The notes under the pieces are model-generated. The model was not told the DNA's origin and made no database searches. It was given only the letters and a program-made list of their open reading frames with translations. DNA of 64,000 bases, taken from assembly GCF_013408925.1 (NCBI RefSeq), contig NZ_JACCAB010000001.1, positions 2,542,001 to 2,606,000 on the forward strand, read 5' to 3'. The first letter of the stretch is position 1. Every line of letters begins with the position of its first letter. Of the stretch, positions 48,687-51,073 are shown piece by piece. Position numbers and translations under genes: made by a program. This stretch comes from Pedococcus badiiscoriae (lineage in GTDB: Bacteria > Actinomycetota > Actinomycetes > Actinomycetales > Dermatophilaceae).

Positions 48687-48750
48687 CCCGCCGCTCACCC
48701 CAGGTGAGCCGCGGCGTCGGCGGTGCAGCCCGCCTGCGGTGCAGCCCGCC

Positions 48751-49257
48751 TCAGGTGGTGATCGGCAGGCCTGCCTCCCGCCACGCCCGGAACCCGCCGA
48801 CGACGTCCGTCGCCCGACGGATTCCCAGGCGCAGCAACGCATCCGCGGCCAACGACGAGGTGAAGCCCTCCTGGCACAGCACGAGCACTCGGGTGTCGAA
48901 GCGGGCGACGTCGAGTCGCGCCTCGTGTCGGGGGTCGAACCTCCACTCGAGCACGTTGCGCTCGACCACGAGTGGTCCGAGGTGGGCCGCCACCTCGCCC
49001 TCCACGGCGCGCTGCGCCGCCGGCCGGATGTCGACGAGCACCGCCCGACCGTGCAACAGCTCCTGGTATGCGCCGCGGGCGCTGACCCGGTCCAGGCGGC
49101 TGCGCGCGTCTTCGAGCTGGTCGTCGATGCCGCGGTAGACCGGTGCGCCCCAGCCGCGACCGGCTGACGTCCGGGTCGTCGCCGGGGCCGTCGGGGTCGG
49201 CGTGGTGGGCGGGGCGCTGAACAGGCGGGTCTCCCAGTGGATGGTCGCGGCGCTCAC
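48751..49257 (-). CDS. Rhodanese-like sulfurtransferase
   Basis: 168 aa from a GTG overlapping the cysteine dioxygenase stop (GTGA). The rhodanese domain starts near residue 55, with A-V-L-V-D-I-R-P-A and the active-site loop L-V-L-C-Q-E-G-F-T-S-S, Cys128. A 35-residue Thr/Pro-rich N-terminus is likely disordered. Coupled to cysteine dioxygenase, it probably handles sulfane sulfur released during cysteine breakdown. Confidence 0.88.
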   Translation of the reverse strand: MSAATIHWETRLFSAPPTTPTPTAPATTRTSAGRGWGAPVYRGIDDQLEDARSRLDRVSARGAYQELLHGRAVLVDIRPAAQRAVEGEVAAHLGPLVVERNVLEWRFDPRHEARLDVARFDTRVLVLCQEGFTSSLAADALLRLGIRRATDVVGGFRAWREAGLPITT

Positions 49258-49739
49258 CACTGCTCACCCGCCCGCTCGATGCCGGTCTCGCGCAACGTGT
49301 TGTCCAGCAACGCATACCTGGTCATGCCGCGCAGCGCCGGGGAGTAGACGTGCACCGAGAGCGCAGGCCGGTCACCGAGGTTGGTCACGGTGTGGATGTG
49401 GCGCGGCCCGAACGTCCGGCCCTCGCCCTCCCAGAGGTACCGGTCGTGCACTTGGTTCCCGGACCAGAACTGCTCGGTGAGCTCGCCCTTGACGGTGAGG
49501 AAGGCGCCCTCCGACTGGAGGTGGTCGTGCCAGCCGGTGGACGCCCCGAGCGGCCAGTGGATCAGCCAGATCTCGAGGTGGGCGGTGGCATCGAGCCGGC
49601 GCCAGCTGCGCTGGGTCGCACCGAGGTCGAGCTCGCGCTCGAGGTCGGGATCGGTGGCGAACAGCCGGGCGGTGCGCAGCAGCTGGTTACGGGTGAAGCG
49701 GTTGACGCCGGGGGTGCCGGCGGTGGTGATGGCGGTCAT
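49254..49739 (-). CDS. Cysteine dioxygenase-type cupin
   Basis: 161 aa from an ATG with AGGAGCAGGA upstream. The metal-binding motif G-W-H-D-H (His71, His73) and the third His in G-P-R-H-I-H (114/116) match bacterial cysteine dioxygenases. The protein would oxidise L-cysteine to cysteine sulfinate. The long intergenic region before it contains a poly-cysteine leader peptide and a perfect inverted repeat, which fits cysteine-dependent control. Confidence 0.9.
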   Translation of the reverse strand: MTAITTAGTPGVNRFTRNQLLRTARLFATDPDLERELDLGATQRSWRRLDATAHLEIWLIHWPLGASTGWHDHLQSEGAFLTVKGELTEQFWSGNQVHDRYLWEGEGRTFGPRHIHTVTNLGDRPALSVHVYSPALRGMTRYALLDNTLRETGIERAGEQW

Positions 49740-49778
49740 GGTCCTGCTCCTGGTCGTGGGAAGGGGTCGAACGGTCGG

Positions 49779-49801
49779 AATGCGTTGTGTGGCAACGCAT
49801 T
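49779..49801. promoter_or_regulatory. Perfect 9-bp inverted repeat upstream of cysteine dioxygenase
   Basis: AATGCGTTG-TGTGG-CAACGCATT. It lies 40-62 nt before the gene start on the minus strand, between the leader peptide and the gene. It could be an operator, or an RNA hairpin in the leader transcript. Confidence 0.6.
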
Positions 49802-49948
49802 CGGCGACAGAGGGACCCCTGCGTCAGGTGCAGGTCGAGGTGGATGCGGTGGTATGCCGCGTGGCTGGAACGGGGTGTGGCCATGGTGTCGTCTTCCGAT
49901 CGGGCGGCGCGCGCGCAGAGGGGGCGCCGGGGCTGGTGCGGACTGGGG

Positions 49949-50002
49949 TCAGGCGCAGCAGCAACACCGCATGACGCCGCCACACATGGAACCCATGTGC
50001 AT
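49949..50002 (-). CDS. Poly-cysteine leader peptide upstream of cysteine dioxygenase
   Basis: On the minus strand, in-frame ATGs at 50002, 49996, 49987 and 49972 lead to the ending M-R-C-C-C-C-A-stop, with a further Cys in M-C-G-G-V-M. Four consecutive Cys codons (TGT TGC TGC TGC) just before the stop are wildly improbable by chance. Ribosome stalling at Cys codons when cysteine is scarce is a known actinobacterial control for sulfur genes. The stop lies about 210 nt before the dioxygenase start. The exact start codon is uncertain. Confidence 0.65.
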   Translation of the reverse strand: MHMGSMCGGVMRCCCCA

Positions 50003-50320
50003 GCGGTGCGTCGCGGTGGTCGAAGACATGCCCCCAGTGGAGCACGACGGCCGCGGCGCCGTCCACGTCCAGCCGGGGCCGTCTCGACACCCGGACGCTG
50101 TGCCATGGCGCCAGGCACGTTCGTCACCGACGGCACCAGCGTGGACCAGTCAGGGCTAGTGCAAATGATCGAGGCCCATCGCACCCAGGTCGGCCACCAT
50201 GGACGTGAACTGGCGCTCTCAGGAGGAGAGCAACTCGGCAGGGGTTCGCGGCGCCAGACGTTGTGACCGGCCATGAGGACGGGCCGTCTGCGCCGCTTCG
50301 ACACGCGGTGGAGAAGGGCC
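50003..50320. other. Intergenic region without a recognised gene
   Basis: About 320 bp between the leader peptide and the lysozyme-like gene. Several short frames cross it, but none has a ribosome binding site and coding bias together. It probably carries the promoter of the leader peptide (leftward) and of the gene at 50321 (rightward). A TCAGGAGGAGAG stretch at 50219 is a strong ribosome-binding-site-like sequence with no obvious start after it. Confidence 0.5.
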
Positions 50321-51073
50321 ATGGCTGCAGCAGACATCCTGACGAAGTTCGGTACCAAGCGTGCGACGGAGGTAGTGGAGCTCGCGGCCCTGGCCGGACT
50401 CGAGCTCGCCGCGGCGGCGACGCTCCTCGAGAAGGAGTCCGGCGGGGGGGACAACGTGTACGGCCACGACCCCGTGCAGACCGGCGGCTTCTACTTCATG
50501 GGCGGACCCGTCACCAAGGCGAACTACACGCTGTACAAGAAGCACCGTGCCACCCTGGGGGCGCAGGGAGTCGGCCCCTGCCAGCTGACCTTTCCCGGCT
50601 TCCAGGACAGGGCCGACGCGCGAGGCGGGTGTTTCGACTGGCGGGTCAACGCCCTCGTGGGCTTCGAGATCCTGTCAGGCAACATCACCGCCCTGGGCGT
50701 GCAGAAGGGCTTCCGCGCCTTCAACGGGACGGGGCCTGCGGCCGACAAGTACGCGACCGACGCGATGAACAAGCTGCGGGTCTGGCGGGAGCGACTGAAC
50801 GGCTCGCCCTCGGTCGCGCCACCCATCGCGCGACCCTTGCTCAAGGAGAACGACTCGGGCCCGTTGGTGCTCGCGGTCCAGAAGTTCATGAACCGCACCT
50901 TCCCCCTGTACTCCCACCTCGAGGTCGTGTCGAAGATCTACGGGCCGGAGACCTCGAAGGTGATCGCCGAGTTCCAGCGCCGAGCCGGCGTGTCGGGGGC
51001 CGGCGTCAGCGCCGCGGGGCGCCAGATCGGGCCACCGACCTGGGCCGCCCTGGAGTTCTTCGGCTTCCGCTGA
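50321..51073 (+). CDS. Lysozyme-like protein with C-terminal peptidoglycan-binding domain (endolysin-like)
   Basis: 250 aa from the ATG at 50321; an ATG at 50273 is possible. Residues about 25-165 look like a lytic domain: L-E-K-E-S-G-G-G-D-N-V-Y-G-H-D-P (Glu37/Glu39), then G-P-C-Q-L-T-F-P-G-F. Residues about 180-250 form a PG_binding_1 domain (L-V-L-A-V-Q-K-F-M-N, Y-G-P-E-T-S-K-V-I-A-E-F-Q-R-R-A, P-P-T-W-A-A-L). No signal peptide. The layout is that of actinophage endolysins or autolysins. Confidence 0.78.
   Translation: MAAADILTKFGTKRATEVVELAALAGLELAAAATLLEKESGGGDNVYGHDPVQTGGFYFMGGPVTKANYTLYKKHRATLGAQGVGPCQLTFPGFQDRADARGGCFDWRVNALVGFEILSGNITALGVQKGFRAFNGTGPAADKYATDAMNKLRVWRERLNGSPSVAPPIARPLLKENDSGPLVLAVQKFMNRTFPLYSHLEVVSKIYGPETSKVIAEFQRRAGVSGAGVSAAGRQIGPPTWAALEFFGFR

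Follow-up and report, generated by a model that had tools for sequence, protein, structure and literature searches.

The cysteine dioxygenase (CDO)-rhodanese operon described here is preceded by two short cysteine-containing reading frames, leader A and leader B, and it seems somewhat probable, at slightly better than even chances, that the two form a two-stage, cysteine-responsive, ribosome-mediated translational attenuator which would switch the operon on when cysteine or sulfur runs short. The presence of a cysteine leader at this CDO locus is very likely, and the assignment of a conserved poly-Cys leader ORF to the CDO-rhodanese operon is supported; the direction of switching, on by shortage, is what we infer from the comparisons given below. 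We count in favor of the two-stage attenuator the conservation of both leaders, the masking of Shine-Dalgarno sequences (SD) in comparison with shuffled sequences, a promoter-like box and the exchange of leader A for a SAM-IV riboswitch; against it we count the null result of a modelled stall on leader A, an effect of opposite sign in the g30 loci, a modelled release at 1 of 13 loci of family f22, a pattern of changes in leader A that does not resemble that of coding sequence and a negative promoter scan. All coordinates are positions in the window, i.e. the whole 64,000-nt stretch of DNA that was analysed, and the host genome is a single 3.39-Mb contig.

The operon and its two leader frames

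The preliminary description had reported a CDO gene coupled to a rhodanese, and this is borne out by the matches to PF05995 and PF00581 (Table 1), the CDO protein lying above its Pfam cut-off, and by the overlap of the rhodanese GTG, at 49260, with the end of the CDO gene, whose ATG is at 49739. By eye, the CDO translation keeps the HDH and S-x-H-x-Y motifs; the nearest solved chains, 8qfr and 8qfl (E about 2e-15), are labelled 'Cysteine dioxygenase', although the enzyme in these entries may be one that oxidises a different thiol (ergothioneine). Cysteine degradation is established for the CDO family, and induction of a cysteine-degrading enzyme at low cysteine would be odd unless its substrate were another thiol; a thiol-scavenging role of CDO would fit such an induction.

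Table 1. Genes, leader frames, signals and predicted RNA elements of the CDO locus (window coordinates)
Feature	Position	Strand	Remarks
-35-like sequence TGGACG	50060..50065	minus	18 nt before -10 box; TGGAC(G/C) in 13/14 Pedococcus-group loci
Extended -10-like box TGC-TCCACT	50036..50044	minus	ends 6 nt before leader A ATG
Leader A, MSSTTATHRMHMGSMCGGVMRCCCCA and stop	49949..50029	minus	26 residues; Cys-rich C-terminus in 14/14 nearest loci, own included
Poly-Cys codons TGT TGC TGC TGC	49955..49966	minus	codons 22-25; presumed cysteine sensor
P1 5' strand GUCUUC	50022..50027	minus	RNAalifold; mRNA 5' end as predicted anti-SD of leader B
P2 helix	49965..50018	minus	CACCGCG (50018-50012) with UGCGGUG (49971-49965); paired in 13-14/14 loci per base pair
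P3 helix	49932..49962	minus	Cys codons with post-stop sequence; paired in 11-14/14 loci per base pair
Leader B SD GGAAGAC	49891..49897	minus	P1 3' strand
Leader B ORF, MATPRSSHAAYHRIHLDLHLTQGSLCRRMRC...	49687..49884	minus	ATG 49884; contains RIHLDLHLTQGSLC; extends beyond CDO start in another frame
Predicted anti-SD in leader B (GACCUGCACCUG)	49825..49836	minus	codons 17-20
Leader B conserved Cys codon TGT	49807..49809	minus	codon 26; presumed stall site
Hairpin GAATGCGTTG-CCACA-CAACGCATTC	49778..49802	minus	3' of leader B Cys; 10-bp perfect stem
CDO SD (AGGAG)	49747..49751	minus	
CDO type I family gene	49254..49739	minus	PF05995, 64.3 bits (cut-off 23)
Rhodanese-domain gene	48751..49260	minus	PF00581, 26.1 bits (cut-off 22.2)

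Leader A agrees with the earlier account of a short minus-strand frame that ends in four Cys, with an extra Cys upstream, some 210 nt before CDO: its codons end ATG CGG TGT TGC TGC TGC GCC TGA, one further Cys stands at codon 16, and its stop ends at 49949, 209 nt before the CDO ATG. Two parts of that account have to be revised. The start, previously put at 50002, is moved to the ATG at 50029, which is the conserved start in the alignment of the loci, and the claim that four Cys codons in a row could not be due to chance is contradicted by the genome itself, where the run TGYTGYTGYTGY (four consecutive TGY codons) occurs 30 times vs 42 times for the backward control; within the window it occurs 2 times vs 0.06 in shuffles. 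Two of the 30 runs, L115 and L120 (leader A), stand at the end of an ORF that has a start codon no more than 6 codons from the run, that of L115 sitting opposite a 742-codon ORF. A 269-codon plus-strand frame that overlaps leader A is regarded as spurious, a judgement reached without a gene-caller run.

Leader A is considered real because of its conservation, not because of the Cys run itself. The 14 nearest CDO loci are those of the own genome, of 10 same-genus CDO genomes and of three genomes from neighboring genera (among this 'Pedococcus group' the named close CDO relatives are Pedococcus bigeumensis, two Phycicoccus strains and Knoellia koreensis), and the ORF is found in all of them, with 26 residues in 13 and 27 in one (L007, through an in-frame insertion of 3 nt) and with GTG in place of ATG at L006; the question raised beforehand, whether close relatives keep the poly-Cys frame, is thus answered by 13 of 13 nearest relatives. 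The leader ends in these relatives read RCCCCA, RCRCCA, RCCCHCA or RCRCQA. Its third codon positions vary least (414, 333 and 262 pairwise differences by position) and the median dN/dS is about 0.88, a pattern of changes that is not coding-like; we read this as a sign that the Cys codons and the RNA structure are what matters, the pattern being no proof of translation. The spacer 3' of leader A is variable, contains indels and is poorly conserved across the 14 loci. For leader A of the window, of L003 and of L022, no NCBIfam model was matched.

Transcription may begin at the leader A ATG itself, giving a leaderless mRNA, because a promoter-like box lies 6 nt before this ATG and because an SD is missing: the mean duplex energy is -3.0 kcal/mol at leader A, whereas leader B and CDO reach -6.5 and -6.8. 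Of 32 loci, 31 share the pattern TG-T....T, its TG falling at -15/-14 and its two other T bases at -12 and -7 relative to the leader start codon, with L005 one base off; the A normally expected as the second base of the box is absent, the -35-like position of L014 reads TTGCCG, and a scan with the standard sigma-70 consensus called no promoter between 48600 and 50200. Two further sequence elements were seen in this region. On the minus strand GAGAC stands at 50081-50085, perhaps as an activator site, and GAGAC lies no more than 90 nt before the leader start at 23 of 32 loci (13/14 in the Pedococcus group, 7/8 in g30). In other genera, a CATAAC/GTTATG or CATAAGTTAG-like sequence that resembles a common operator was seen by eye near the CDO promoter or leader start (L047, L052-L054, L056, L058, L060 and L069-L074).

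Leader B, which the preliminary description had overlooked along with the predicted pairing of the mRNA 5' end to its ribosome-binding site, lies between leader A and CDO and has a good SD. Its core motif R.H[VIL]DLx7C is present at 14/14 nearest loci, changes at third codon positions are in excess, the core has a median dN/dS of about 0.55, and a profile of the motif run against the own genome returns leader B as the sole significant match (E 2e-15, the next being E 0.385). In 18 aligned CDO-locus leaders, a set chosen for the H.DL motif, the H, D, L and C residues never vary; seven of these 18 type B leaders match the NCBIfam model NF042934 'putative leader peptide', and six match a model of the Ms4527A leader (E up to 10). 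Against NF042934, with its cut-off of 27 bits, the leaders of L014, L041, L047, L051 and L062 score 27.3-32.9 bits (28.3 for L014); leader B of the window matches neither this model nor the Ms4527A leader model, and neither window leader matches NF042933 or NF042936. Leader B is related, though divergently, to Cys leaders already known from actinobacteria. The hairpin 3' of its Cys codon is shorter and partly altered in close relatives and by eye was not seen in L012-L014; no T run follows the hairpin, and the terminator scan found no intrinsic terminator.

Predicted RNA pairing and simulated ribosome stalls

The consensus fold computed with RNAalifold from the 14 nearest CDO loci contains the helices P1, P2 and P3. 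P1 joins the first leader A codons to the leader B SD (paired in 11-14/14 loci per base pair) and P2 joins leader A codons 4-6 to the MRC codons; further downstream, CCUG of leader B codons 17-18 pairs with the CDO SD (12-13/14 loci per base pair). Across 32 loci the duplex between the leader head and its own ribosome-binding site amounts to -10.73 vs -9.45 (sd 0.24) for permuted partners, and 0 of 20000 permutations equal it, a count that is not a probability because the 32 loci are related. The g30 heads, GUCGUC, match a GACGAC directly 5' of the g30 SD, and the Pedococcus heads, GUCUUC, match the SD itself. Opening the leader B SD costs 10.05 kcal/mol vs a mean of 6.8 (6.4-7.4, 12 sets) when nt 1-12 are shuffled, and opening the CDO SD costs 10.7 kcal/mol vs 6.9 (6.1-7.8, 12 sets) when the leader B stretch is shuffled base by base. 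This folding beyond shuffled controls suggests a cascade in which the mRNA 5' end would mask the leader B SD and leader B would mask the CDO SD.

A modelled ribosome placed at the leader B Cys reduces the cost of opening the CDO SD in 14/14 loci, from a mean of 10.7 to 6.6 kcal/mol, i.e. a mean drop of 4.1 vs 0.3 (-0.1 to 0.75) in shuffle sets. A stall moved 4 or 8 codons upstream is equally effective (means of 5.0 and 6.1), so that the effect belongs to a region with the Cys at its edge. A modelled stall at the leader A Cys run did not lower the cost of opening the leader B SD (10.0 to 10.2); as a direct opener of that SD, the Cys-run stall had no effect in the folding model. Among the positions modelled on leader A, the 5' AUG is the one at which a ribosome opens the leader B SD (cost 5.5), and it is from these two results, a Cys-run stall that leaves the SD masked and a 5'-AUG ribosome that opens it, that the idea of a ribosome queue is derived.

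Applied to other loci, the stall model mostly gives no clear direction for g30, type C and f22, with type C as the exception. At type C loci, in which a leader A-like head stands directly before CDO, a 5'-AUG ribosome lowers the cost of opening the CDO SD in 9/9 and a first-Cys stall does so in 6/9. In g30 the sign is the opposite: masking of the 5' end raises the CDO SD opening cost from a mean of 3.7 to 6.3, with an increase at 7/8 loci. Of the f22 CDO loci, a first-Cys stall lowers the cost by more than 0.5 kcal/mol at 1/13 and raises it by at least 1.2 kcal/mol at 6/13. Type B CDO loci elsewhere show a drop of more than 0.5 kcal/mol in 7/13; among the seven whose Cys lies 49-58 nt from the CDO start, five drop by at least 1.4, L047 drops by 0.5 and L023 rises by 2.0. 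Calibration on known leaders, which covered 25 of 26 prepared loci (L165 was omitted, its gene start being unclear), returned a first-Cys drop in 3/12 for Ms5788A and 5/13 for Ms4527A; since known leaders seldom show a drop, the model often misses real attenuators and its negative outcomes carry little weight.

Leaders and riboswitches at CDO genes elsewhere

In 186 genomes of the family, 90 CDO match rows were obtained (two of them pieces of one gene), and the upstream regions of 70 were analysed, the 20 weakest rows being omitted. Short ORFs whose C-terminus carries a Cys pair occur at 33/70 loci and the H.DLx7C motif at 27/70, one of the latter (L036) being doubtful and apparently accidental; 16/70 combine the two features, in 15 cases as separate leaders and at L023 inside a single ORF, 44/70 have either and 26 have neither by these rules. 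The base rate of C-terminal Cys-pair ORFs in the window is 0.031 per 400 nt (10 on both strands, leader A included). At eleven of the 26 loci with neither feature, WHxC stands close to the end of a leader. Leaders with WHxC plus two residues stand before CDO at L021, L024, L030, L042-L044, L046, L048, L050, L055 and L057, and several WHxC leaders share the MSS start and the anti-SD head of leader A.

Outside the family, 4/20 CDO loci of other orders have a Cys leader, and so have 6 of 20 further CDO loci of the class, chosen among the matches listed (L145-L148, L151 and L152), a distant Cys leader at L163 being left uncounted. In family f22, a short ORF with a terminal Cys pair accompanies CDO at 13 of 14 loci, L137 being the exception; because all 13 f22 genomes searched match the Ms5788A leader model (E up to 1, 8/13 over its cut-off), f22 is probably Mycobacteriaceae. 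The f37 leaders at L145-L148 terminate in SCCCCPSC, ARCCCCCSSC (twice) and ARCCCSSC, and the two of them that were compared with NCBIfam gave no match; these f37 leaders differ in sequence and stand before a CDO paralogue. Cys-ended leaders of several unlike sequences thus recur at actinobacterial CDO genes. At eight loci of f15 and f16 (L078-L080, L082, L083, L085, L091 and L092), a leader is absent and CDO lies directly 3' of an amidohydrolase-like ORF (by eye).

SAM-IV riboswitches (Rfam RF00634, 91.6-113.2 bits) precede CDO at L016, L051, L062, L064, L065, L087 and L151, i.e. at 7 of 40 loci scanned, which were partly chosen for a SAM-riboswitch-like appearance, and six of these seven also have a type B leader. 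In the window itself the Rfam scan of 48700-50400 gave 0 matches up to E 1, SAM-IV being absent, and a known riboswitch was on this ground discarded as a candidate for that interval. L015 and L016 come from one genus (g52) and from assemblies 87% and 68% complete; between the two, the CDO protein is 75% identical over 161 residues and the B leaders have HIDLSLTASDLCQRMP in common, and L015 combines leader A with leader B, whereas L016 combines SAM-IV with leader B, so that the riboswitch occupies the place of leader A. The L016 genome contains a second CDO copy (L040) with no recognised leader. SAM-IV riboswitches are taken to shut off sulfur genes at high SAM, and the exchange of one sensor for the other within g52 suggests that leader A and SAM-IV act in the same direction; this exchange, combined with the shut-off by SAM-IV at high SAM, is the main reason for reading the operon as switched on by starvation.

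Mechanism, alternatives and known systems

In the two-stage attenuator, transcription would start at the A of the leader A ATG, as the promoter-like box indicates. With ample cysteine, ribosomes would quickly clear leaders A and B, the 5' GUCUUC would pair with the leader B SD and leader B codons (ACCUGCNCCUG) with the CDO SD, and little CDO or rhodanese would be made. With cysteinyl-tRNA in short supply, ribosomes would pause at the leader A Cys run and might queue back to the 5' AUG, where the queue might free the leader B SD, a release of which the model shows the 5'-AUG part alone. Translation of leader B would then halt at the conserved Cys, where the ribosome would occupy the anti-SD and leave the CDO SD open, a step with support in silico. 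Expression of CDO-rhodanese at shortage would probably help release thiol sulfur for reuse. A more specific version places two sensors in series, the leaderless 5' terminus acting as a lock on the leader B ribosome-binding site that is opened by a queue, leader B locking CDO, and the first module being exchangeable with SAM-IV; this we put forward tentatively, at rather less than even chances.

The preliminary description had proposed the reverse logic, namely that passage through the leader at high cysteine permits CDO expression and that stalling shuts it off. Such a direction suits a catabolic enzyme from a family that degrades cysteine, and it draws on the stall model where a 5'-end ribosome increases SD masking (7/8 g30 loci) and where a first-Cys stall does likewise (the 6/13 f22 loci noted above). 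It is unlikely all the same, because SAM-IV riboswitches occur at CDO operons, one of them in the place of leader A, because the modelled leader B stall frees the CDO SD throughout the 14 nearest loci, and because siblings of leader B match models of leaders that belong to biosynthetic genes (nirA, cysA2).

Two other explanations were considered. Ribosomes paused at the Cys run might shield the C-rich spacer, Rho otherwise stopping transcription before CDO; this spacer, which reaches from leader A to the leader B SD and is poorly conserved, consists of 54% C and 25% G over the 14 loci, the terminator scan found no intrinsic terminator, and Rho has been proposed for mycobacterial cys leaders in the excerpted text of PMC1262725. 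Both downstream SDs are nonetheless masked beyond shuffled controls, which points to control of translation, and we regard Rho attenuation as quite improbable. Least probable of all, and to our minds very improbable, is that leader A is an untranslated, conserved regulatory RNA or protein-binding site: the low variation of its third positions and the median dN/dS of about 0.88 are what one would cite for it, yet none of the 14 loci has lost the start, the frame, the Cys-rich end or the stop (with the one in-frame +3 and the one ATG-to-GTG change), and Cys-ended ORFs of other kinds turn up at CDO genes of further families.

If the two-stage attenuator holds, cysteine-responsive attenuation would thereby be extended to a thiol-oxidising enzyme in many actinobacteria, and the locus offers a testable case both of serial leaders and of a riboswitch taking the place of a leader peptide. 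Should CDO be induced by cysteine shortage, its usual cysteine-catabolic label would need rethinking; should the serial-sensor version be true as well, the arrangement would be an amplifying cysteine/SAM gate, and actinobacterial CDO-rhodanese would be a sulfur-starvation rather than a cysteine-detoxifying enzyme.

Mycobacterial leaderless short ORFs of the poly-cysteine type are reportedly the subject of Canestrari 2020, at six loci, and are said to figure in Shell 2015 as well. Leader A resembles Ms5788A (before cysA2) and Ms4527A (before nirA) in being short, apparently leaderless, first in a sulfur operon and provided with Cys near its stop, and the release of a masked ribosome-binding site is proposed here too; it differs from them in its CDO-rhodanese target, in the two serial leaders, in an anti-SD at the extreme 5' end and in the lack of an NCBIfam match for leader A. 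Leader B, like the cis_reg_atten model NF042934, has R.H[VIL]DLx7C, and its sibling leaders pass the cut-off of that model; unlike it, leader B of the window gives no match to the model and extends past the motif as ...RRMRC. SAM-IV (RF00634) occurs before CDO at other loci, its place in the window being occupied by leader A.

Among published accounts, Cys-run leaders are described in the excerpted text of PMC1262725 for the cys operons of Mycobacterium and P. acnes and for B. longum cbs. These have Cys codons near the stop as here, and a terminator hairpin is neither reported in that excerpt nor found in our locus; they are described one at a time and before biosynthetic operons, whereas two leaders precede CDO here. 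Conserved leaderless Cys-rich uORFs at cysA2, Rv0485 and nirA are mentioned in the excerpt of PMC4633059, and the excerpts of PMC9094748, PMC13236596 and PMC9031893 cite the poly-cysteine work of Canestrari 2020. Among the literature matches listed, as represented by titles, abstract openings and term counts and with the loci of Canestrari 2020 lying outside them, none joined CDO with a leader peptide or with SAM-IV. We are dealing with a real, conserved cysteine-leader system of a known kind, in which the CDO target is new as far as the search extended, the leaders are arranged in tandem and the first module seems to be exchangeable.
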